Positions 29,624 to 50,441 of a stretch of DNA of 64,000 bases are shown here, one piece after another (position 1 is the first letter of the stretch; every line of letters begins with the position of its first letter). The notes below the pieces were generated by a model. It saw nothing but the letters and a program-made list of their open reading frames with translations. It was not told the DNA's origin and ran no database searches. Made by a program: the position numbers and the translations under genes. Source of the DNA: Oidiodendron maius Zn (taxonomy: Eukaryota > Ascomycota > Leotiomycetes > Myxotrichaceae); NCBI GenBank assembly GCA_000827325.1, contig KN832876.1:186001-250000 (forward strand). Direction: 5' to 3'.

Positions 29624-32600
29624 ATGAGGGCCATGAGCTTTCCATGGGGACTTACAGGAGCGTTACTAGCTTCCACGTACCTCCACTCATTATGCGTCTC
29701 TGCTAGCCCGTCAATAAATGTTGAACTGAGAGCGTCTTTCTCGTCTGCCCCATATCTCCTCGAACTATTGTCTGTACACTCCCTTGATCATTTCTGGTTA
29801 GCATTGACTAATACCTCTATAGAGAGACTGCTGGCGATGAAAATTCAACATCATACTTCCCCCTCCTTGACCGCATTGCGGATGGCCACTTCTCAAAAGC
29901 CTCGACGGATAAAGAACTCTATGATCAATTCATACAGGTCTTGAAAGAGGATGGGCACATGTCTGATCCCCATACATTATCTTCTTTCCAGTTTGCCTTG
30001 TCCATGCGATCCTCTGCTCCCCGTATTGAGGCACATTACCAATACTATCACACGTCGGCTGAACCGTATCTCCAGGCAGACCAAGAACCATCATGTTCAA
30101 TATGGGTCCTATTCAATGACAAGCAATACTGTTCCCCGCTGTTGGAGGAGGCTAATGGAGATGTTAGCGGTCACTCGTATGTTCCACTATGCACAGGTAC
30201 AGGGCTGGAAAGCTAATCCGTCGTGAAGACAAGCGCAAGAACTACAATTTGACAGGGTTCTTGGAAGCCGTTCTGCACCCGCTACTGTGCTGTACGCAGA
30301 CATTACCTCTCCATCATTTGGACAGTTTCACAAATCCCTGGTGAAAGCTGCCCTTGAGGGTAAAACTTCCTATCGAATCCGCCACCGGAATCCCACTTCC
30401 GAATTCAAACCTCTCACCATTCCTGGTTACGGTGTTGAACTTGCATTAAAGCGAACAGACTACATCGTCATTGACGATCGCGAGGACAATGAAGCTAAGA
30501 CGTCGAATTCTGACTCCGAAACTAAAGTGAAGTTTGAGGATGAAGAGTTTGCCGACCTTAAACCTCTGTCTAGCTCGGAGCTGCTCAATCTCAGTGTGAA
30601 GGCTTCAAGTTTCATAATGCAGAGCGAAGAACCATTTGATACCCTGATAAAACTTTCTCAGGATTTCCCAAAATATTCCAGCGCAATTGCCACCCACAAT
30701 GCAACAGATGGCTTTGTCACGGAGCATGAATATAATCGCGCTCAATTAGTGCCTGCAGGATACAATGTTTGGTGGATAAATGGAGTTCAACTGATTGAGC
30801 GACAGATCAATGGTCTTAGCCTCCTTGAGATTTTGCGGAAAGAGAGGAAACTTATTAAGGGTGTGACCAATCTTGGCTTCACTGTTCGAGAAGCAATCGA
30901 TCTACTTGCGCACACCGAAATTTCCACGGTGAAAGTTGATAATGAGCCTCCGAGATACGACTGGAGAGATGATATCGAGGGTGGTAGCACGATAATATGG
31001 ATGAATAATCTGGAAAAGGACAAGCGTTATGCAGAATGGCCAGAGTCTCTCTCCGCAATGCTGCAGCAAACTTTTCCGGGACAGCTTCCCTCCGTCCGAA
31101 GAGATTGTTTTACTTTAGTTGTTCCCGTTGATTTCACAGATATGCAGGATGTTTATCTCGTGGCTGATACCCTTTTGAGCTTTGTGAAACGAAAGCTTGC
31201 TCTTCGAATTGGAATTGTTCCTATAGCTAAAACGTCTAATGCCGCTGAACAAGCTGCAATAGTCTACCATCTCCTCGACACTTATGGATTGGCTGCTGCC
31301 ACCGAATACCTCGGGGTATCTTACAACTCTAAGTCGGTTGAACATGCAAGCAAGTCGAATTTTGAATCTGTCATAAAAGGAAAAGGGCTTCGTCCGGACA
31401 AAACCTCTCATCCTTTTGATGATGTACTTAAATCGGACGAGTATAAAAACCAAGTCCAGTTCTCGCAAAAATGGATTCAAAGATTAGGTGCGAACAGCGA
31501 CGTGCCGCCGATGTTTGTTAACGGTGTTGCTATCCCCCGCGATGAGAATTTCTTGCAGGCGATGAGCTCCAGGGTTTCAACTGATTTACGTGCCATCCAA
31601 GCCGAGATATTCAAGGAGTCCATTGAGCCTGATGCTTGGCTACCTAGCTATTTTCTCACGGATGCTGTTTTACACCGGAACACCCTCGTGGCGCCAGAGG
31701 ACGATAAGAGCTTGAGAATATTCGATGTCAACAAACTCATGGATGGTAGTCTGGACATACTGCAAAAACTACCCCGCGTCGAAGTCGATCCTTCGTCTGC
31801 AAAAGCCGAATGGGCCTATATGACTGTGGTCGCTGACTTGAATTCGGAGGCTGGCGGAAAACTACTCTCTACAGCTGTTTCATTTCGAAAAGCCAATCCA
31901 TCAGTTGAACTCGTCGTAGTGCATAATCCTGCCCCGGAGGCAACAAACAATACTGTCAGCAACTACTTGTTTTCTTATATGCGAGGCCGTTCATACAACA
32001 CTGTGCAAAACGCCGATGAATTAATAGCCCATTCAAATGCAGCTGCCGTGGACGGAACAGGACTATTCCAGGAAGAAGCAAACAGGTATTGGCAGACAGC
32101 GAGCTCCTTGGTCCGGTCAATCGCGTTTCAGCCTGGGCAAAATGGTCTTTTGTTAAACGGCCGTCTCCTCGGCCCGGTCCCAGATACATTAGAACTTGAA
32201 CTGGCAGACTTCGAACAACTTTTATCTTATGAGCGCTCCAATCGTATTTCTCCAGCATATGCTGCTGTTGATGCACTTGGACTTTTGGACAAAATCACGG
32301 AACCTCTTGTAGCGGCCAAAATCTCCTCCATCGTTGCACTCTCCACGATATCAGATACTCCTGATGGAATATTTGAAAAAGCTCCTACGATCAGGCTGAG
32401 CTTTAATGATGTCTGGAATTCTTCCCACACAGTTATCGAAATCGGTGATATCTCCACTGCAAGTATACAAATGACACTGCTTGTGGACCCAGCCAGCGAA
32501 CAAGGCCAAAGATGGCTTCCAATAATACAGGTGGTCTCAGAGCTGGATGGAGTCTACTTGAAGCTGTTTCTAAATCCTAAAGGGCGCCTCCAAGAGCTTC

Positions 32601-34180
32601 CAGTGAAGCGCTTTTACAGATACGTTCTTGGTTCGAAGCCAACTTTTGATGAATCTGGTGACCTTCAATCTCTGGGAGCTTCGTTCACGGGTGTTCCACA
32701 AGAGGCCTTGCTGACCGTTGGTATGGATACACCACCAGCTTGGCTCGTTGCTCCAAAGACCTCCATACACGATTTGGACAACATTAAGCTCAGCTCTGTC
32801 AAATCCGACGTAAAAGCAATATATGAGCTGAAAAATATCCTAATTGAAGGCCACTCGCGAGAAATACCTGGCGGAGCAGCACCAAGCGGCGCGCAGCTTG
32901 TTCTAGGAACAGAGCGAGAACCTCATTTTGCCGACACCATTATCATGGCAAATTTGGGATACTTCCAGTTTAAAGCAAATCCAGGTTTTTATAAAATCAA
33001 TCTTCAAGAAGGTAGGAGCTCGGAGATCTTCAAGATCGAAAGTATTGGGTCTCAGGGTTGGGCGCCTGTCCCCGGGGACGAGAGTTCGGAAGTTGTTCTT
33101 ATGAGCTTCCAAGGTGCGACATTATATCCAAGGCTATCCCGAAAGACAGGGATGGAGACTGAAGACGTCCTCGAAGCGACAGCAGACTCCCCACTGGGCT
33201 TTGTATCCCGGGGACTCAACTTTGCGCAGGGCATTCTAAGCGGCAAAACTCACGAAGTTCAGCAAGAAACACAGGCCGAAATCAACATATTCTCTGTGGC
33301 AAGCGGACATCTGTATGAACGTATGCTAAACATCATGATGGTCAGTGTCATGAAGCACACGAAGCACACTGTTAAATTCTGGTTCATTGAGCAATTCCTC
33401 TCGCCATCATTTAAGGACTTCATCCCATACCTCGCAGCTGAATATGGCTTTCAGTATGAAATGGTGACGTTCAAATGGCCCCATTGGCTCAGAAAGCAAA
33501 CAGAAAAGCAACGTGAGATTTGGGGTTACAAAATCCTTTTCCTTGACGTCCTCTTCCCCCTATCTCTGGATAAAGTGATCTTCGTGGATGCGGATCAAAT
33601 TGTGCGGACGGATATGATTGATCTCGTAAATCACGATTTAAAAGGAGCGCCTTACGGATTCACGCCAATGTGCGATAGCCGAACCGAAATGGAAGGATTC
33701 AGGTTTTGGAAACAAGGATACTGGGAGAAATTCTTGCGTGGACTACCATACCACATATCTGCGCTCTATGTGGTCGACCTCCAACGGTTCCGACAAATGG
33801 CCGCAGGCGATAGGCTTCGCCAACAATATCACTCGCTCTCAGCGGATCCGAATAGTTTGTCAAACTTGGATCAGGATTTGCCAAATCACATGCAGACTGT
33901 TCTCCCAATACACAGTCTTCCGCAAGAGTGGTTATGGTGCGAGACCTGGTGTAGCGACGAAAGTCTGAAAGAAGCACGTACTATTGATCTGTGTAATAAT
34001 CCATTAACAAAAGAGCCGAAGTTGGATAGAGCAAGACGACAAGTACCAGAATGGACAGTCTATGATGATGAAATTGCTGGCGTCGATAGGAAACGAAAGG
34101 GTCCGAAAGAACCTGAAGACAAGACTGAGAGCAAAACTGTTGGAGCGAAAGAAGGCACCAGTTCTAAAGATGAGTTGTAG
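29624..34180 (+). CDS. UDP-glucose:glycoprotein glucosyltransferase (UGGT)
   Basis: ER lumen folding sensor that re-glucosylates misfolded N-glycoproteins. Exons 29624-29769, 29823-30176 and 30229-34180 give 1,483 residues, normal for UGGT. A signal peptide covers about residues 1-28 (WGLTGALLASTYLHSLCVSA). The thioredoxin-like sensor domains fill the first 1,100 residues, recognisable by stretches like FDRVLGS and VLYADITSPSFGQFH. The GT24 catalytic domain begins near residue 1184 (EINIFSVASGHLYERMLNIM) with DxD at about 1287 (KVIFVDADQIVRTDMIDLV) and the conserved SLPQEWLWCETWCSDESLK. The protein ends in KDEL, an ER retrieval signal. Two introns are near the 5' end only. Intact. Either Gpt1 or Kre5-like naming is possible; the conserved catalytic domain argues for active UGGT. 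Confidence 0.95.
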
Positions 34181-38012: not shown

Positions 38013-39184
38013 TAGTAGTGGAGTGAATTCCACGAAAAAATTCAGAACAGGTGGCAGAGAGGTATTACTACACTCACTTAATGTGAGCCGGCCAGAATAA
38101 CTGCCAATATATGCCAATATTTTTTTCTCCAAGTGTTTCCTTTCAAAATATATAATTTTACTCGAAGCTGTAAAATCTATTCGTATATAGAGAGAGAGAG
38201 TACTGGAGGATACTGTACTCTAATCAGTCGGACTTCATGACCTAGTAGAGTGACGACTTTAATTGCATTGCGAATCTCGGATGGAACTGACGTACAGTCT
38301 CGATCTGAAGAATAACGCAAGAAAATCACTACTATAAGACATAAGCATGAATCGATGCAGTTTGGAAGTGAAAGTGACATGTGTAGTTTCAAAGAGAGAC
38401 GGGTGAGGACTAGTTTATGGCCACGCATAACCTCCTTTCTAAGCATCTATAATAGCTCTACCAGCGCTCAGTTTCAACTCCTCTCCACAAACTCTCACAA
38501 CCACCAAACAAACGCCAACCTCTTCATCGCCACAAAGGTAGCATAGCCTTTGAACGAAACTTCAGACCCAGGTAAGAAGAAATAATGCGTTTCATTTGTT
38601 CATATCCCTCTCAAAGTCGTCATAGTTGAGGGATAGTTCCTTAGACTTCATTGAGCGGAGACGCGGCTTGTTCAAGATCTCACCGATCTAGTTGATTCCT
38701 CGTCAAGCCTAGTTAGGTTGAGAAGAGCATTGATCTTATCGATCTATGAAAGGTAAAGCCTAGAGAGCTTTCTATTAATGTCTTTCTTGACCTGTTTTGA
38801 GTTATTCTTCGAGGATATCAAGTCGCGCCTCTCTTGACGCGCCGCCCCGCGCTCTCTTCTATTGCACAGCCAATCATTCCCACTCTCTGAGTTAGTCTCC
38901 TCTGAAATTGAGTACGGTATGGCACAAGCAACTCCTCGATGGTCTATATCTTTCATGGAATATCATGCCGACCTCTAGCCCAAATCAGGTAGCTTCAATG
39001 AGAACAAGTACGTCCAGACTTAGCGCCGAACAAACTCATGTCACTTCCATCATTCTCGGCGAAATGAGATCAAAACCACTTTGTTTCCAAATGTACTTCT
39101 TAGTCCAGAGACTGGAGATATACCTTGTAAAAATATTTGGACCCTCACTAACAGTGCCTAGATCCCTCTAGGACATCCGTCAAG
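38013..39184. other. AT-rich spacer
   Basis: About 1.2 kb. Includes a short GA microsatellite near 38190 and a CA/CT-rich stretch (38460-38530) that could be leader sequence for the downstream gene. No coding frame supported. Confidence 0.35.
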
Positions 39185-40930
39185 ATGAATTGTCAGCGCG
39201 GTCACACCGGATATCGCGGCTACCATACAGGAAACATTGACCCGGCCCTTGAGAGTCCTGGTTCAAGCACCATGGCTCTCAACGCCTACGGCCCAGGAGA
39301 CAATGACCATAGCATTGATAGTTTTGGCACAAATACCACCAGTCACGGCGGCTATCGCTCTAAATATCGTAGCCAGAGCTTTGATAGTTTTGATCAAAGC
39401 AGCATCTGCTCAAGCACTACTGAGCCTAACGCCTACCGCCCAAGGGGGTATGGCCAGCGTCTTGACAACTTTGACTCAAGCACCAGTGGCCAAATCAACT
39501 ATCCCTCTACATATCCTGGCCAGAGCTTTAATGGTTTTGATCAAAACAACATTAGCTCCAGCTCCATCGACACCAGCATTTATGGATCAGCAGATTGGAA
39601 CCACAGCTATGATAACTTTTCTCAGAGCGGTACTGGTCCGGACTTCGGTCCTCATGGCACTGGGTTTGACAAGTATGGAGGAGGTAGCAATGCCATATAC
39701 AGTAATTTCAAACCCCAGCATCATGCTTATGATGCAGAATTTTAATGAGATCAGATTTGCTAACATTCAGAAATAAGCGGGGTTGGAGAACCAGATTTAT
39801 CCGTATAATCCGGATGATATGAGTAAAGTCCCTGAAGAGCATTAGATGAACAAGTCAACTGACTTCAGAAAGAAATTAGCTGGGAGATGGCTCGGCAGCA
39901 TCAATCAGCCGCCCTGAAGCACGAGTATCCCGAGATGGTCGAAAAGATGGGTCCCCTAGCTGATGTAGTGAGTTTGTTGTTCTATCTAGACCCATGACCG
40001 ATCTGACTATACACTCGTAGGCTGCGCGAGGCTTGGAAATCAATGACAACATTCCAACCATTGCAAGCGGCCCTGTGAGTATATTGCTCGACACATCGAA
40101 GTGAGTAGACTAACATATCCTTGCAGGTCGCAGATAATGATGGAGACAATAACAACACGCCATTACAGGCTAGCATAGTCAACTACACCTTGGTAGAGAG
40201 TAATGGTCGAATGGTAAAGCGTTATATTCAGCCTCGTTGGGATATGAAGACAGTGTGTAAGAGCCGTCGGCTGCTCATGACTTGGGGCTGACATGAATGA
40301 AAGGTGCAGAAGCATACACCACTTGCTCCGAGGGGTACTAAGTTTAACATTGGTGACAATCCGCATATCCTTCGCAAGCCAGTCATCAAGGGCAAAATTG
40401 AAGCTGACAAACTTCGATTCGACGTCATTGACTCTGATGGCAACCTTCATGAGCGATACTTCCATAGGATTGATGAGGAGAATTGGGGTGATGGGAAGTG
40501 GATCTCGGACGCGAATAAATGGCGCAGCCAGACTATCCGCCGCTTGTTTAAAAACGACCCCTTATTTAAAGCAAACGACACTAGGGAAAAGTGGACCGAC
40601 GAGGAAGAGAGTTATTTCAAGGCTGCCGTGCTTCGCATTGCCAAGGAGAACCGCAGAAAGCTGGCCGCCAAAGATTGGAACAAATTGGTTGTCGAGCATA
40701 ATCGAAAGTTCTTTAGTAGCGGAACAAGCCCAGATGGGGCTCAGGCGAAGGAGGGGGCTCCGGCAGTGCGAACCTCCAGCGGCCTACGGACCAAGTACAA
40801 GCGCTTCCCGGATCTCATCGCACAGGTCACGCAAATAATTAACTCGCCCCAGGAGGATACAGATAATACCGAGATCAAGCTTGAAGATGAGAAAGAGAAG
40901 AAGGTGAGCGTCGACGACAAGCACATTTGA
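39185..40930 (+). CDS. Prion-like N-terminal repeat protein with Myb/SANT-like C-terminus
   Basis: Family not recognised. Likely exons 39185-39701, 39778-39822, 39873-39967, 40021-40074, 40127-40252 and 40304-40930, about 487 residues; the second and third junctions are tentative, the last three are clean phase 0. Residues 1-170 are rich in Ser, Gly, Tyr, Asn, Gln and Asp and contain five degenerate repeats built on an F/Y/L-D-x-F-D/S core (QSFDSFDQSS, QRLDNFDSST, QSFNGFDQNN, HSYDNFSQSG). The middle has MARQHQSAALKHEYPEMVEK. The C-terminal part has REKWTDEEESYFKAAVLRIA, a Myb/SANT-type opening, then an acidic-basic tail. This suggests a nuclear protein with a phase-separation-prone N-terminus, by inference only. 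It sits at the edge of the decayed 34-39 kb island. Confidence 0.6.
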
Positions 40931-41626
40931 ATTGGTTGAGTGGTTGAGACAGCCATGTATGAGGGGGAAGACGTTGTACATGCGCGTGCAGTCTATTTGA
41001 ATCGGCATTTGTCCTGAGGATTACGGCGTCATTTTTCATTTTTCGTATGGTTGCATTTCTTCGATATTCGCGCTACGACAAGTGTATTGGCACCAGTAGT
41101 TAAAGCGTCTTGGTGCCTGCTAGATCGTTTCCGCCTCTCGGAGTCGGGTATGGTTTCTTCGGCCATGGTATTGGTGACAAGAGAGGCCGCAGGCGTACAA
41201 GGAATTCGGTATTCTAATTGCTGCAGTGAGAGTTCGGGAGCACTAAATGCAAAGGCTCTGATCTTCTGAAGCGTGTGTGCTGGGCGATGTGACATGGCTC
41301 ACGAGGTGTGTCGTTGAGATTGATCCAATCGGGGTTAGCTGTGGGTGACAAAGCTGAAAGGTCAGCAAAAACTCACGATTGCGCCCTTCTGCCCCTGCTA
41401 GATGTGACTCGAGAAGGATGGCGTATATAATCCAGTACCATTCCTTCACCTTTTCTCCTTCTTCTTGTTTTAGTCTCTGTTCTCCTTCGTCCTATAATTC
41501 TTACCACGTATATATGCGCATGCAGTAGAGCAGGCATACATGAGACAAGGCGCTCTTGTTCGCTCGAGGGGTCACATCGATTTCTCTTAATACCTATCAT
41601 TGGATCGCCTCCATTATCTCGTCACA
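40931..41626. other. Intergenic, MFS transporter promoter
   Basis: About 700 bp. A pyrimidine-rich tract (41450-41500, TTCTCCTTCTTC type) lies about 150 bp upstream of the transporter ATG, a common fungal promoter feature. No gene supported. Confidence 0.4.
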
Positions 41627-43261
41627 ATGTCGACTACCGCAACTAGCATAGAGCTCCAAGCAGGACATGCTGGCGTTGTGCAATTGGAACCCATGCGCGA
41701 CCAGATAGACGACACCGAGACAGTATCTGTGCAGAGAAGACCTGACAGCCATCGCCTCGACGAGGCGGATATCTCCTCTCAGCAATTGACGACTACCGAC
41801 AACCCAACCATCTCGAAATGGAGTGCAGCGATCCTTATTGGCAACATAGCCTGCATTACCCTTATCAACTCTATGCTGGCAGGACTGCTGGTGGTTTCTC
41901 TCCCAACCATGGCGCGTGATCTAAAGCTTTCCGACGCCTTGGTTCTCTGGCCGGCATCTGTTAACGCCCTCTCGTGTGGCTGCACCCTCCTCCTCTTTGG
42001 GTCTGTTGCGGATATTGTGGGTGGGCGGAAAATGTATCTTATTGGCACCTTTTGTCTGATGTTGACCACCATTGCCTGTTCCGTCTGTCGGACGGGCATT
42101 GAGCTCATTCTATTCCGCGCCGCTCAGGGCGTAGCATTATCTCTCTGCCTGCCATCCTCGGTAATTCTTATCACTCGCAACATTCCTACAGGCACCTGGC
42201 GCAATGCCGCTTTTGCTTGCCTTGGAGCTGGACAGCCTGTAGGCTTCTCTGTAGGCCTGGTTCTAGGAGGCATCTTCGTGGAAGGCATCGGCTGGCGATA
42301 TGGATATTATATCGGAGCCGTTTTAATATTTGTGATCTTTGTTATTTCCATCTTCGGCATTCCTCCAGATTCATCTTCTGAATATCAACCTCTTCCTTCG
42401 ACCATGAAGCGACTCCGGGATGAAATCGATTGGACTGGCTGCCTGCTTATTAGCACTTCCCTTGGCATGTTCTCGTACGTGCTCTCAGTCCTCGCAGGGG
42501 GCAGTGCCCACTTTCTGGAACCGGCATCGATCACACTGCTCTCCATCGCCATAGTTCTAATCCCGATATTTGTGTTTCATATTCACAGACAAGAACGATT
42601 TGGCCGTAAGGTAATAATGCCACCATCTCTCTGGACAAATCGGGTCTTCACATCTCTCTGTATAACTGTATTTGTCGTGTGGGGTGTTTTTAATGCGATC
42701 GAATACTTCTTGACGCTCTTTTACCAAACCATCCAATCTTTATCAGCAATCCAGACATCTATGCGCTTCCTTCCCATGGTGTTCACAGGAGCCGCAGCAA
42801 ATTTCGTTACCGGATGGCTGGTTAAGCGCGTGAGAGCTGATATCTTGATTCTTAGCTCAGGGGCAATGTCAGCAGTTGCTCCATTGCTCATGGCTATCGT
42901 GAACCCCAAGTGGTCATATTGGGCTTGCGCATTCTTCGCCACTGCCTTTACCCCAATATGTGCTGATGTACTTTTCACTGTTGCTAATCTACTCATCACA
43001 TCTGTATTTCCACCACAGACGCATGGTCTTGCTGGCGGGGTGTTCAACACCGTTAGTAATATTGGGAATAGCGTTGGCCTGGCGGTCACTGCAGTAGTAG
43101 CGTCTGGGGTGACACTGGCTGAGAAAGGACAATCAGCTGAAACCCTGATGGATGGCTATAGGGCAAGCTACTGGTTGTGCTTTGGTGCCAATGTATTGGC
43201 TTTAGTAGTTGTAGCTTTTGGATTGGGAAAGATTGGAAAAGTTGGAATCAAGATTGATTAA
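41627..43261 (+). CDS. MFS drug:H+ antiporter, DHA2 (14-TM) type
   Basis: Plasma-membrane exporter of drugs or metabolites driven by protons. Intronless, 544 residues from ATG 41627; the open frame extends a few codons upstream but without ATG. About 70 hydrophilic N-terminal residues precede the first membrane segment. MFS motif A-like GSVADIVGGRKMYLIG follows TM2, and the antiporter motif C region is GAGQPVGFSVGLVLGGIF. Around 14 hydrophobic segments can be counted, ending with FGANVLALVVVAFGLG. Similar proteins in ascomycetes are often called aminotriazole/multidrug resistance transporters. The substrate cannot be read from sequence. No biosynthetic core gene lies nearby, so a metabolite-cluster role is not supported. 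Confidence 0.9.
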   Translation: MSTTATSIELQAGHAGVVQLEPMRDQIDDTETVSVQRRPDSHRLDEADISSQQLTTTDNPTISKWSAAILIGNIACITLINSMLAGLLVVSLPTMARDLKLSDALVLWPASVNALSCGCTLLLFGSVADIVGGRKMYLIGTFCLMLTTIACSVCRTGIELILFRAAQGVALSLCLPSSVILITRNIPTGTWRNAAFACLGAGQPVGFSVGLVLGGIFVEGIGWRYGYYIGAVLIFVIFVISIFGIPPDSSSEYQPLPSTMKRLRDEIDWTGCLLISTSLGMFSYVLSVLAGGSAHFLEPASITLLSIAIVLIPIFVFHIHRQERFGRKVIMPPSLWTNRVFTSLCITVFVVWGVFNAIEYFLTLFYQTIQSLSAIQTSMRFLPMVFTGAAANFVTGWLVKRVRADILILSSGAMSAVAPLLMAIVNPKWSYWACAFFATAFTPICADVLFTVANLLITSVFPPQTHGLAGGVFNTVSNIGNSVGLAVTAVVASGVTLAEKGQSAETLMDGYRASYWLCFGANVLALVVVAFGLGKIGKVGIKID

Positions 43262-44674: not shown

Positions 44675-45711
44675 TTATTCCGCCTTTGCTAAGCTGCTTA
44701 AATTCCGAGCTGGTTTACGCACGACATAAACGCATGTCTTCTGTCGCTTGATACAATTCGAGCAAGGCTCGGGAGCTGTCTCAAAGGCATTGCAGCGAAT
44801 CTAGCACCACGGTGATTAGCTTCCTATTGCATTTAGATGCCCAGTATGACAATCTGTGTTTATTCAGTCATCTGTTAGTGGCACACGAACCTTAGCCTGA
44901 CGGCATGTCGTACATGCACTTGGACCCCTGGGCTTGTATTCTTTGGTTTCGCATTTGGGCTTTTTAGCGTCCAATTTTTCGACGTCTTGGGAACCTTCTT
45001 CCTCTTCCTCCTGTGGCCTTGTTCTTTTCGTTGTAGGCTGAGGCTTTTGAGTGTCAATTAGCTCGGGCCCTTAGAGGGAGATAAGTTGAACATACTTGAG
45101 AGCAGAGAGATGCATTTTGGTCTTTGGCATCTCCACGCTTTACTGATCTCCGCTTGTTTGACATCTCTTTCATGGCGATCTATAGACTGTTAGTCTCGGT
45201 CTCGGTCTTGGCTATTAAATAAAAAATATCATACGAATGCTTCTTCTAGCAGGCGCTGGCTTGCAGATCGTGGTAGAGCCTCAAATCGTCTCAAAGCTTC
45301 TGTGTATTCCGCCATGTGAGTTTCTGGTACCATGAGAACATCCTCATCCGCTAGAGTCTCCAGCTCATGAACAGCTGTTTCAACACGTGCTTGGGATTCT
45401 TGTCTGGCGGCACAGAAGCGGACAATTGCACCTTTTAGGAGGTGGTAGTCGGTGTTCCGATCAACAGCTTTGAGGACTGTCTTTATCCACTCTCTCTCCC
45501 ACCAGTAGAGAACTACATCAGTAGTATCTGCGTCTGGTATCTCAGTGGACTGAGCTTCTAGTGCTGAGAGTAGAATATTCATGATTATTTTGAGCTTGTC
45601 CACATTGTCGAGGTCAAGTCGACGGAGGACAGACGCGTTATTGTAGCGAACCATGTTGTAATTCTGTCTCGCCAGGTGGGCTATGAAACATATCCAGCCG
45701 TTTATTTGCAT
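44675..45711 (-). CDS. Small Zn2Cys6 protein with N-terminal helical domain (paralogue A)
   Basis: Model exons on the minus strand 45711-45235, 45186-45144, 45069-44891 and 44800-44675 give about 274 residues. The N-terminal 150 residues are mostly helical (KLKIIMNILLSALEAQ, YHLLKGAIVRFCAARQESQA). After a Glu-rich, Lys-rich linker comes a canonical fungal binuclear zinc cluster, split by the last intron: CTTCRQAK, then IRCNAFETAPEPCSNCIKRQ and KTCVYV, spacing C-x2-C-x6-C-x9-C-x2-C-x6-C. The basic RQAKIR loop suggests DNA binding. The protein ends about 15 residues later, so the cluster is C-terminal, the reverse of ordinary Gal4-type regulators. The second and third exon edges are the only tentative part: alternatives need a 26- or 34-nt intron. 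The ATG may lie further upstream. Paralogue of the next gene. Confidence 0.65.
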
Positions 45712-46204
45712 TGAAACTCGTAGGACTAAGCGCAAAGTCAAGATCGTGATCCTCGATCTGTGTTGTTGTGTGATGTAGACAAGTTCAGGGTGAACATAAC
45801 GCCCCCGTTGGGAGATCGATGCATCTCTCAGTGTTAGTTAACGAGACTATTACTTTGAAAGGAAAGTTGAAAAGGCTTAAAAACTTCAGTGAATTCTATC
45901 TTCGCTTATTCTTAATGTATATGCCTATTTTGGCGCAATACCATGCATGAAGGTTTGCTTCCCATATGATTCCTCTCCAATGTCCGCAGCACGAAGAATT
46001 AACCTGAGAAAAAGGACTTATTCTTTGAGGTGTCCCGTCCAGCTTGGTCTTCAGTAGTCTCAAAAGAAGCCGGAAAAAGCCCGACTAGTGAATCAGTAAA
46101 AGGCCCAATTTCTTGCTTCTTAGTATCTCGTTACCCAACCTCCCTTCGCCTTGTAAGTAATGCTGCCAGTGGGGCTACTGTTACTGTCGCAACTGCGTGA
46201 CTGA
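45712..46204. other. Spacer between the two Zn2Cys6 paralogues
   Basis: About 490 bp, promoter of paralogue A and 3' flank of paralogue B. A short open frame (HDLDFALSPTSFNANKRLDM) overlaps the very start of paralogue A in another frame and may be the remains of an upstream exon. Confidence 0.35.
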
Positions 46205-48165
46205 CTATCCCTCAGTCTTGACGATAATAGCATCCGCAGTCTTATTATCCTCTTCTGAATCATCATCTTCACTTTCGTCTTCGATATCCTGATCAACTTC
46301 AGCCAGGCCCACCACCTCGCTGCTCTGAGCGGTGGCATATTTGGCCCTGGCCTTCGCCTCCGCTTTCGCCTTATTTTTGGCTTGCTTCTTGCCTTGACAG
46401 CCTATACAGTATCCCACAGTAGCTCCGGGAGTCTTTGAGTGTTTCTTAGGGGCGTAGTCGGCAATCGGCTTCCAACCTTGGCACGTATTGCAGAGTTTCT
46501 CCCCTTCGTGATCTACATTTTTCCGGCCTCTGCCCGGTCGCTTTTTGGATTTACTATTGATCTTCGGTGCGATCTTGACAGCAGAATCGAGCTTTGGAAT
46601 TTTCGCAGAGTTTGGACTAGTTTCATTATCTATCTCTGCATCGCCAGCGAGGCGCTTGACACCAGAAATAAATGTATTTGTGGCCGGCTTATCAATCGTG
46701 ACATCTAGCTTCACCTTCTTCGAGGAACTAGGGCCGGCTAGCTCATTGTGGTCTTCCTGCTTCCTCTTCCAAGTCTCGGTCTGCGGGTTGACGGGAAAAT
46801 TTGGAGAATTGGCCTCGTTACCTGCAGTTGGGATCAGAGGGATGGACCTATTGTCCAATTCACCAGCGGTCTATCAAAGTCCAATTAGCCACAACCAGTG
46901 ACAACCCGAAAGAAGTGGTGGGGAATTACCGGGAATTGAAGCCTAGCAGTGGATCTAGTCACTCGATCGGATGGAGGCAGCAACTGAGAACTTCTGTTAG
47001 TCCTTGCAGAATGGATTTCAGGATAGAGAAAGTGGGAACTTACTGGCTTCTCTGGGTCTGACGCAGCTGACTTTTGGACCGTTTTCAGAGTCGCCCGACT
47101 AAGAGCTTCAGTCCGTGATGTAGTAGTCTTTAGTACGGCTGGCTTTGGGGCCGTAGTCTTCGGGACCGTTGCCTTAGGAGCTTCGGTCTGTGGTATAGTA
47201 AGCTTTAACGCTGAAGGTTTCGATGCAGTGGTTGAATGAGCGGGCTCTTGTTCTATTAGTTTCAATACCGCAGGCTTTGTGACCGTAAGCTTTGTAGCTG
47301 TTGCTTTCCGAACTGCAGGGCTCTCAGGTGAGCTCTTTAGGGAGCTTACAGCCGGGCTTGATGATTGATATGACAATGGGCTTGAACCTGGAGATTGCAC
47401 GACAGGCTCCTGGATCATACGAGAAGGAGTCGTATAAAGGCATTGACGCCAGGATGTCCTGCATGTAGTACACTTCGGCTCCTTGCAATCACAAGGCTTA
47501 TTATCCCTGGTACACTGGTAGCAAGGGCCAGAATTGATACTACGCGGCCCATCAGGAACAGGATGGGGTGCAAACTGAATGTCGCGAGGAATGTCACGCA
47601 CATCACCGAGATCACGAGCTGCCATTTTCTCGATCTCAGCCGATCGACCAGTGTGGTATATTTGTTCTCCAAAAGCGCCCGGCGCCTAGATTGGATTAGA
47701 AATGTATTAGAGATATCAAGATGTGATGCTCACCAGTTCTGCAAGGCGCTGTCGGACACGCATAATATCAATCTTGCCTCTAATCGCCGTCATGCGAACT
47801 TCCGCTGCCTTATACTCCTCAGGGAATAGGTATGGAGTTGTCAAAACTTGCTCTTCAGCAAGGTCATGGAATTCACGGGCCGCAGCGAGAACTCCTTGGG
47901 CATCACAATGTCTACCAGAGACAAATCGCAATGAGGCTTCAAGTAGCAGAGGGTACTTAGTGCCATTATTTCGAATGCAAGCCATGATATTGGCGATTAG
48001 AGCATGCTCAGATTCGCTCAAATGGCTGACTGCCTCGAAACCGACGTTCAAAATCGAATGAGTAAGGTGATACTCGAAACCTGTCATGAACTTGCGGATT
48101 TCTTCATGGTCACTCAGGTTTACTCCCTCTAAGATAGAGTAAGTGGGTGAGTCGTCGGAAGCCAT
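46205..48165 (-). CDS. Zn2Cys6 protein with N-terminal helical domain and C-terminal zinc ribbon (paralogue B)
   Basis: Exons on the minus strand 48165-47734, 47685-47044, 46983-46930 and 46870-46205, all phase 0, give 597 residues. Residues 1-144 match the helical domain of paralogue A: YPLLLEASLRFVSGRHCDAQ here against YHLLKGAIVRFCAARQESQA there, both at the same place. A zinc cluster follows near residue 180: CYQCTRDNKPCDCKEPKCTT and CRTSWRQC, canonical spacing with an extra cysteine but fewer basic residues. Then comes a long Thr/Lys/Pro repeat region (units like TKPAVLKL, TAPKPAVLKT), a basic KKRPGRGRKN patch, and a CNTCQGWKPIADYAPKK...YCIGCQGKK pair of CxxC motifs like a zinc ribbon, and an acidic tail. 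Probably nuclear; function unknown. Confidence 0.75.
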
Positions 48166-49654
48166 TTTGGAAAACTTCTTGGAATATTAGCAGATATAGT
48201 ATCTAAGACAGGGGATACGAAACGGTTTGATATTGCGTCACTGAAGCGTCTGGGTGTGTGTATTTAGGAGTGAAAGTGTCCCGGGATATAGAAGAGTGGA
48301 AGGTAATAGAGAAACTGAAACTTGCAACGAAGAGAAACGAGATTTTAGGTTCCAGGGTGATGAAAATAAGTAGAGGAAGAGCAATATAACCCCACTCGTT
48401 AGTGCATGGTCCAGAAGAAGGCGATATATTGTTGCTCGCGCCAATGTGGAGGTCGTGAGGTTGCAGTGAATACCAAGCATCATCCTACTGTTGTCAACAG
48501 AGCCTATTGTCATGGTAAAGGACAATATTAATCACAAATTCTCGGCTACAGCTAACCAGATAAATGGGCAATAGGGAGTAGCTACATATAGACAACTACT
48601 ACGAGAATAACGGCGGAATGAGAATAGTTCCCATGCGTGCAAAGAAGCTCTGGGTTGAATTTCAGACACGCTCCGTTAATTAATTTTGATAGACTTGTAA
48701 GACACTTAAAAGAGATTTCTAACGTGGATAAATGAGCGCGAGTAAAGGGACAGCAAACCTATAATGAAAGGTATCATTTCGTCCGACGTACTATATCCGT
48801 TCAAACCTTGCGAAGTCTCTTTGCCAGAGCAACCTGAAGACGAGAATTATAAACGGCTGTAGCAGCACTCTCAAAGCTACACGTAGATAGTTAGCATTTT
48901 GCGCATAAGAGAATTCAGCGCCATGTAGCTACTTATCTTGTCTCTGGATTTTGTCGGGTCTTTTATCGGCTATCAGGCGTATCGAAGGACTGTGATAGTG
49001 TAATAAAATGAGTACAGCGATGGCTGAAATATGACTCTTCCGGCCATTAATATTTCATCAATCGTTTGCTCGAATATTTCTGAGTTCTTTCCGTCGATGG
49101 GACCGCATATTTCGACAACGGAGTAAAGCAGGACATAAGGAAACTGTGCTAGATATACGAAACTTTGAAACTGCGATTGTATTTTATGTCGTATGCACTC
49201 TGTCTGTGAGACCGTGCCATGCTCCTAGTCTTGTAGAATCATTTCTCTGCGCCTTTCCTGGCTCTAAATGAAGGAAACCACCGCACTAACAGCACATGTT
49301 GAAGTGGATATTGCGAACGTGGACGGCATGTTTGTGGATAGCGGTCCAACTAAGATCGTTCATTCCGCGGCTATTGTACAACGACAGGATATCTCAAATA
49401 GAAATCGTGATATGGCCCAATTTCACTCGAGTGCAATGGTAAAAGCAGATATTTTGCTTGTCTCCACTCAGGCTGTAGCGAGGGCCTTTCCAGCGTATCA
49501 AACGCCTCAATGTTGTCATCAAGATTTCGCAAGTCCTCATCCTGTCCAAATTATAGAGAATATTGTTGATATCTTGTTCGACTCATCAGACCAAGGATGA
49601 GGTAGCAACATGTCGAACACTATATTCCAGACACCGGGCATCGTTCCGGATGGG
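48166..49654. other. Intergenic region with a weak plus-strand frame
   Basis: About 1.5 kb: promoter of paralogue B and 3' flank of spc34. A 110-codon ATG-initiated frame at 49268-49600 lacks recognisable motifs and overlaps the likely spc34 3' untranslated region on the other strand. I see nothing else. Confidence 0.35.
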
Positions 49655-50441
49655 TCACCTGAGCAGGCCACCCAAATCTCTCTCCATTCCGCTCACCCGG
49701 TCCTCTAGCTCCTTCTTTCTTCTCTCTAGATCTTTAATCTCCTCCTCCTCCCTCTTCAAATCCTCATCGGTAATTTCAAATTTCTCTTCCGGCTCAGTAC
49801 CCGTGTCCTCATCCTGAAAGTCCTCGTCGCCATACACGTCGTTTCGGTTCATTTTATCCAACTCCCTTTCCTGATTGGCCACCTTCTGCTCGTAGTGCGC
49901 CACACTGGATGACAACTGTGAATATCTAAGCCTCAAATCGTCAATGCGCTTTGGAACTCCCAGTATGGAATACACTTCATTTAACTTCTCGGCGCCACGG
50001 AGTAAGACCTCGATGTCTACATCTCCCTTTCCTTCGGATTTCCTGACCTCGGAGTGTAGTTCAGGCCCAAGTACAGCAGCTATTGCAGTATTCCTCCGGG
50101 GGGCACGGGCAGAGGTGCCCGTACCAGTTGTAACCTCTCCTGATGCGACGTTGAATACGGTTTGCCTGCGGTTGGGTTGCTTTTTTGTGTAGGAAGCAGA
50201 AGATGAGGCAGGAGGCTGTGGTGGTGGGACAGAAAAGAGAGCGCGCTCATGAGGCTCGGTGTCTCTGATCAGGGACGTGATGTCGGGTGTGGAGAGGAGC
50301 GCATTCGTAAACATCTTTGGAGGGGGAAAGCTTGGTGGGGTGAGCGACAACAGCGAAGATGCGAGAGTGGACTTACGGGAGAGTTCCTATCGATTCAGAG
50401 GACAGAGCGATCTGCTCGAGATGTCTCTCTAGCAGCGACAT
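49655..50441 (-). CDS. spc34: DASH complex subunit Spc34
   Basis: Component of the DASH/Dam1 ring that couples kinetochores to spindle microtubules in fungi. Exons on the minus strand are 50441-50377 and 50330-49655 (phase 2), giving 246 residues. The first exon encodes MSLLERHLEQIALSSESIGT and the splice creates LPFPPPKMFTNALL, followed by DITSLIRDTEPHERALFSVP, all diagnostic of Spc34. The middle includes LLRGAEKLNEVYSILGVPKR, and the last 80 residues form an acidic coiled coil (KREEEEIKDLERRKKELEDR). Using the second-exon ATG alone would remove the conserved N-terminus, so the two-exon model is preferred. It diverges from the acidic unknown gene at 51.9 kb. Confidence 0.92.

Follow-up and report, generated by a model that had tools for sequence, protein, structure and literature searches.

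The 64,000-nucleotide stretch of the Oidiodendron maius Zn genome analysed here, hereafter the window (contig KN832876.1, positions 186,001 to 250,000 of assembly GCA_000827325.1; located on contig C7 of the 45.9-Mb genome, G000, that we searched), carries two adjacent minus-strand genes, A and B, between an MFS transporter gene and a gene for the DASH subunit Spc34. The safest statement about this pair is that a helical core has been duplicated locally and that its copies now stand before very different six-cysteine clusters. Coordinates, all given in window positions, are collected in Table 1. Splicing of the models, whose introns are all of the GT..AG type and measure 55, 52 and 90 nucleotides in A and 48, 60 and 59 nucleotides in B, leaves an open reading frame in each case. 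Codon scores, for which eight other open stretches of the window served as the training set, were highest in the modelled frame for 8/8 exons, the weakest being exon 4 of A, which at 0.012 bits per codon is barely positive. For comparison, three intergenic stretches used as a control scored negative in all frames. A and B are real four-exon genes, and their clean models bear out the first-pass annotation in placing two neighbouring genes here, both with a motif of six cysteines following an N-terminal region. Retention of intron 1 (45180-45234 in A, 47686-47733 in B) would yield proteins of about 141 and about 149 residues containing the core alone.

The relationship between the genes was assessed through local alignment of their first exons, of 140 (A) and 144 (B) residues. 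The Smith-Waterman (SW) alignment comprises 75 aligned pairs, 25 of them identical, and scores 78, a value equalled in none of 5000 shuffles of exon 1, for which the maximum was 65. A matching block picked out in the first-pass annotation, YHLLKGAIVRFCAAR in A and YPLLLEASLRFVSGR in B, sits within this significant alignment. Elsewhere, the first 52 residues of the two proteins are unlike (1047/5000 shuffles equally good), as are their linkers (1286/5000), and the tail following the core is borderline (250/5000). Exon 1 ends in phase 0 in both genes, 13 residues past the core in A and 16 in B. We take the core similarity as true paralogy, although at 75 residues it amounts to about half of the shared helical domain of some 145 residues that had been proposed.

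Searches of the whole genome, made exon by exon and scoring the best candidates only, returned, with either exon 1 as query, just the query itself and the other gene at E values up to 1, the reciprocal matches being weak (E 0.0627 and 0.0535); no further copies of the core were thus found. A total of 1359 open stretches, drawn from the window and from the fetched loci except eight in which the A/B region recurs, were also scored; apart from the own stretches of A and B, the best reached 44 for A and 50 for B, against 78 between A and B. The stretches preceding three late clusters elsewhere in the genome (L023, L024 and L061) were tried as relatives of the core and rejected, with scores of only 17-25. 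Since A and B are adjacent and share the core, of which no third copy was found in the genome, local duplication of the core region is most likely, as judged from sequence comparison.

Pfam yielded only weak, unrelated matches to the N-terminal domains (Chalcone_2, E 0.12; DUF423, E 0.082), and a profile search of the PDB likewise gave weak matches only, the best of which (E 0.075) is a designed protein. A profile used to look for relatives elsewhere produced 157 pattern matches in viral contigs and 171 in bacterial and archaeal genome contigs, none of them confirmed, a result that says little because these collections hold viral, bacterial or archaeal DNA. Structure predictions were helical for both N-terminal domains, as the first-pass annotation had supposed, but of unequal quality: the best of five models for A has a predicted local distance difference test score (pLDDT) of 62.9 and a predicted template modelling score (pTM) of 0.62, the remaining four having pLDDT 48-53, and is fair, whereas that for B is poor and of low confidence (pLDDT 49.3, pTM 0.37). 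The matches listed by Foldseek and VIA for the A model are mostly generic helical bundles.

Zn2Cys6 clusters are abundant in this genome: 150 matches, the best 150 of 614 first-look candidates, were scored and all exceeded the cut-off. Every fourth row of the 150, counted by hand, furnished a systematic sample of 37 Zn_clus matches (35 fetched loci plus L004 and L008). Cysteine-aligned comparisons employed 34 distinct motifs from this sample and, as a wider set, 53 from all fetched loci.

Read across the junction of exons 3 and 4, the cluster of A scores 33.2 bits against PF00172 (Zn_clus), above the cut-off of 21. Its closest PDB chain is LEU3 (2er8, E 9.5e-7), with which it shares, in the PDB alignment, a separation of 9 residues between the third and fourth cysteines. 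This separation occurs in 0/34 sampled clusters, where gaps of 6 (25 clusters) and 5 (9 clusters) are found. Searched against the genome with self excluded, the A cluster has many matches to other clusters at E 5.6e-5 and weaker. Its alignment with a Leu3-like gene, L062, whose intron a six-frame search cannot cross and which we spliced by eye at GT..AG, scores 133 by SW with 23/37 residues identical; the best of 52 other clusters, a set fetched in part for resemblance to A or B, scores 94. L062 is itself nearest to LEU3 (E 9e-5) and, as hand-spliced, has both the 9-residue gap and the phase-0 intron that in A (44890-44801) splits the cluster just behind the lysine of the loop. Introns do recur at this loop in the genome: among five loci examined, three (L066, L068 and L069) have the two halves of the cluster on either side of a phase-2 intron placed one base earlier, and in L070 only the first half appears within the stretch examined. 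All four of these named loci have a phase-2 splice site after the codon for the loop-1 lysine, offset by a single base from the phase-0 intron seen in A and L062.

Loop position 4 of the A cluster is Lys, in keeping with the claim that A retains a basic DNA-contact loop; Lys or Arg occupies this position in 30/34 sampled clusters. From the 2er8 alignment and the numbering of Leu3, we take this residue, Lys219, to be the equivalent of Leu3 Lys44. By its sequence the A cluster belongs with the Leu3 type, and A is likely to bind DNA much as Leu3 does. Replacement of Leu3 Lys44 by Ala is described in PMC3384613 as lowering DNA binding about 15-fold, and the title of a reference in that paper concerns recognition by Leu3 of everted CGG half sites.

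The cluster of B presents a different picture. Its six cysteines, accompanied by an extra Cys, have a legal Zn2Cys6 spacing with a third-to-fourth cysteine gap of 6 and lie within a single exon, but its score against PF00172 is 15.9 bits for a 38-residue piece and 11.5 for the exon, below the cut-off of 21, and it is absent from the Pfam matches of full-length B at E up to 1. The earlier description of correctly spaced clusters in both proteins is thus accurate as to spacing, with A alone reaching the family cut-off. The best genomic matches to the B cluster, other than itself, are ordinary zinc clusters (best E 3.1e-4), while in the PDB zinc clusters are reached only at E 6.6 and 8. The top PDB match, NADH dehydrogenase iron-sulfur protein 5 (E 0.023), was set aside as a chance match of cysteines. 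Loop position 4 is Asn, as in 1/34 sampled clusters, and position 6 is Pro where 34/34 have Lys or Arg. B probably does not bind DNA, and the usual contact lysine may either have been lost, as had been suggested for the basic loop, or never have been present.

Other parts of B were inspected in the same way. The first-pass annotation had credited B with a second zinc motif, and a CX2C-X24-CX2C pattern is indeed present near the C-terminus, though it matches no family above cut-off; its best PDB match has E 1.2, and a genome search at E up to 5 turned up no second copy. Assignment to a known zinc ribbon was rejected (Zn_ribbon_11, 14.1 bits against a cut-off of 24). The motif is preceded by KKRPGRGRKN, which may faintly resemble an AT-hook. 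The proposed gain of repeats fared worse: Tandem Repeats Finder, run over 46000-48200, gives a single 6-base array, so that clean repeats were dropped, leaving a Lys/Pro/Thr-rich linker that resembles the histone H1-like family HC2 below its cut-off. Together, the Lys-rich linker, the CX2C-X24-CX2C motif and the acidic tail suggest that B may associate with chromatin.

When the two clusters are aligned on their cysteines, with the middle loop left out, they score -15 against one another. The A cluster averages 12.4 against the 34 sampled clusters and in 0/34 comparisons falls as low as this; the B cluster averages -9.7, with 8/34 as low and 26/34 higher. Corresponding counts for the wider set of 53 are 0 for A and 15 for B, and among random pairs of clusters, scores as low as that of A with B make up 0.5% in the sample and 1.1% in the set of 53. 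SW scores agree, that of A with B being below those of A with 52/52 and of B with 51/52 other clusters of the partly similarity-fetched set. Because the A-B score lies below all 34 of the A values and 26 of the B values, the B cluster is, on this measure, divergent from most and the A cluster is not its near relative. The gap of 9 and the intron within the A cluster contrast with the gap of 6 and the single exon of that in B. The two clusters may have had separate origins.

Our preferred reading, held tentatively and at somewhat less than an even chance, is that the core was duplicated locally, that A is a Leu3-like reader of DNA and B a partner making no DNA contact, and that the clusters are of different lineages or that one has been replaced or has diverged. 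Two results weigh against it. A BLASTP alignment of the full proteins continues past the core and reaches the region of the clusters, with E 7e-8 over its entire length; the post-core regions taken alone score 49, a value reached by 51/5000 shuffles. Both alignments pair the first CX2C half of the A cluster with the second half of that in B, out of register, and for this reason do not show a common cluster. The first-pass annotation had proposed instead that one gene, with core and cluster already joined, was duplicated in tandem, after which A kept its cluster while that of B decayed and other parts were gained. We consider this possible but doubtful. It would explain the same order of parts in adjacent genes, the shared phase of intron 1, the homologous cores and the legal spacing retained by the six cysteines of B, and the post-core score, though out of register, also favours it; less readily accommodated are an A cluster more like every sampled cluster than like that of B, the unequal spacing, an intron splitting one cluster and not the other, and the unlike linkers. 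What survives of the proposal is duplication of the core, significant in alignment, adjacent and with only two genomic copies; duplication of the whole architecture, core plus cluster, is not supported by the sequences compared.

Errors in the gene models would offer another way out, if core and cluster exons belonged to different transcripts or proteins consisting of the core alone were made. The models are predicted from sequence, and in both genes a retained intron 1 brings the frame to a stop within a few codons, the unspliced exon-1 frames ending ...LLEEAFV and ...RLAELVSITS. This explanation we judge improbable, given that coding score favours the modelled frame in every exon, that it is the joining of exon 3 of A to exon 4 which yields the Zn_clus match above cut-off, and that all introns measure 48-90 nucleotides with GT..AG ends. 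Still harder to credit is that the N-terminal similarity arose by chance, or by convergence of helical composition, between two unrelated lineage-specific genes. The restriction of the alignment to 75 residues, the unlike first 52 residues and linkers and the modest genome-wide E values would be expected of such genes, but no shuffle matched the alignment score, each gene finds in 45.9 Mb, at E up to 1, no non-self match but its neighbour on the same strand, and the two first exons agree in the phase and approximate place of their ends. We regard a chance origin as very improbable.

Under our preferred reading, that of a locally duplicated core whose copies have come to precede very different clusters, both proteins would be nuclear and the core would be a module for homotypic or heterotypic interaction. 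A would then be a small DNA-binding regulator, using its C-terminal Leu3-like cluster on CGG-type half sites, and B a non-contacting partner or chromatin-associated relative, by virtue of its Lys-rich linker, zinc-ribbon-like motif and acidic tail, which might modulate A or the targets of A. The exons coding for the two clusters could have come from different cluster lineages by exon or module shuffling; alternatively, one cluster could have been replaced, or have diverged beyond recognition, after duplication. Heterodimers of zinc-cluster proteins have a precedent in AcuK/AcuM (PMC12719309). A bolder version, in which the 75 residues form a new helical domain for pairing that was duplicated in tandem and joined to two unrelated clusters, with A a Leu3-type reader and B a DNA-binding-dead, chromatin-oriented controller of A, seems to us unlikely.

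Should the core prove a real pairing domain, the locus would be a case in which a Zn2Cys6 reader of DNA is maintained next to a paralogue with a dead cluster, and in which cluster modules have been swapped while the partner domain in front of them was conserved. If not, the locus is another pair of late-cluster zinc-cluster proteins, in a layout known from Ume6, Czf1 and PacX. At present the pair is best described as a modest variation on fungal gene regulators and not as one clearly duplicated new design.

Elsewhere in the window, three genes were identified by clear Pfam matches (Table 1). Beside the MFS gene, at 39152-40930 of the plus strand, open stretches at 39152-39745 and 40301-40930 have no Pfam match at E up to 0.01 and perhaps represent a lineage-limited gene.

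Table 1. Positions of genes A and B, their principal features and other genes of the window.
Feature	Window position	Strand	Basis or detail
Gene A, 260 residues	44675..45654	-	exons 45654-45235, 45179-45096, 45043-44891, 44800-44675 (stop included)
Gene A core, residues 53-127, common to B	45274..45498	-	alignment and shuffles; helices in model
Gene A cluster, first half CTTCRQAK, residues 212-219, end of exon 3	44891..44914	-	PF00172; LEU3 2er8
Gene A cluster, second half, residues 220-242, exon 4	44732..44800	-	PF00172; LEU3 2er8
Gene B, 597 residues	46205..48165	-	exons 48165-47734, 47685-47044, 46983-46930, 46870-46205 (stop included)
Gene B core, residues 53-128, common to A	47782..48009	-	genome search and alignment; low-confidence helical model
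Gene B six-cysteine cluster, residues 199-226	47440..47523	-	CX2CX6CX6CX2CX6C plus extra Cys; 15.9 bits, PF00172
Gene B C-terminal CX2C-X24-CX2C, residues 503-534	46397..46492	-	seen in sequence; Lys/Arg-rich stretch, before acidic tail
UDP-glucose:glycoprotein glucosyltransferase	30227-34180		clear Pfam match
MFS transporter	41591-43261		clear Pfam match
DASH Spc34 subunit	49655-50386		clear Pfam match

In neither protein is the cluster near the N-terminus, that of A occupying residues 212-242 of 260 and that of B residues 199-226 of 597. Cluster position was measured in 35 of the 37 sampled matches, two (L041 and L051) being without the full motif in the sequence shown. More than 140 residues of open frame precede the cluster in 2/35 (L023 and L024), making a cluster far from the N-terminus uncommon. 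A further 3/35 have no methionine before the cluster in the open stretch, so that some late-cluster cases are hidden by introns. Another late cluster, L061, was found by similarity to A (G000:C5, around 610123); its open frame of 680 residues contains two successive six-cysteine motifs, additional CxxC pairs and, after these, a stretch rich in Lys, making a multi-cluster protein possible. The fungal-specific domain that commonly follows such clusters had been reported missing from both proteins, and Pfam indeed gives no match to it at E up to 5 in A or up to 1 in B, both taken as spliced. No description of the A/B pair was present among the matches listed in a literature search covering titles and abstract openings, with most subscription papers outside it, a result that leaves absence from print unproven.

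Comparison with known systems places the two genes as follows. The A cluster resembles the Leu3 type (yeast LEU3, PDB 2er8/2ere) in sequence, 9-residue gap and basic loop, but A ends 18 residues past its last cysteine, lacking the long following protein of a whole Leu3 orthologue. On sequence, L062 is the better Leu3-like candidate in this genome: its cluster lies about 14 residues after a methionine, whereas that of A lies behind the core. The CeGAL or Gal4-like regulators, defined in PMC10141177 by a cluster, generally N-terminal, together with a middle homology domain, share with A the Zn2Cys6 cluster, but A and B have no match to the middle homology domain and their clusters are late. Late clusters are nonetheless an uncommon layout that is already known, because of Ume6 (Saccharomyces cerevisiae), Czf1 (Candida albicans) and PacX (Aspergillus nidulans): PMC4832277 calls PacX unusual in combining an N-terminal coiled coil with a C-terminal cluster and names Ume6 and Czf1 as similar. 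By these published descriptions, the present layout has in common with Ume6 and Czf1 a late Zn2Cys6 cluster, and with PacX a cluster placed in the C-terminal direction and preceded by a helical N-terminal region; PacX differs in its length of 661 residues and in its 46-residue coiled coil, which lies 221 residues before the cluster.
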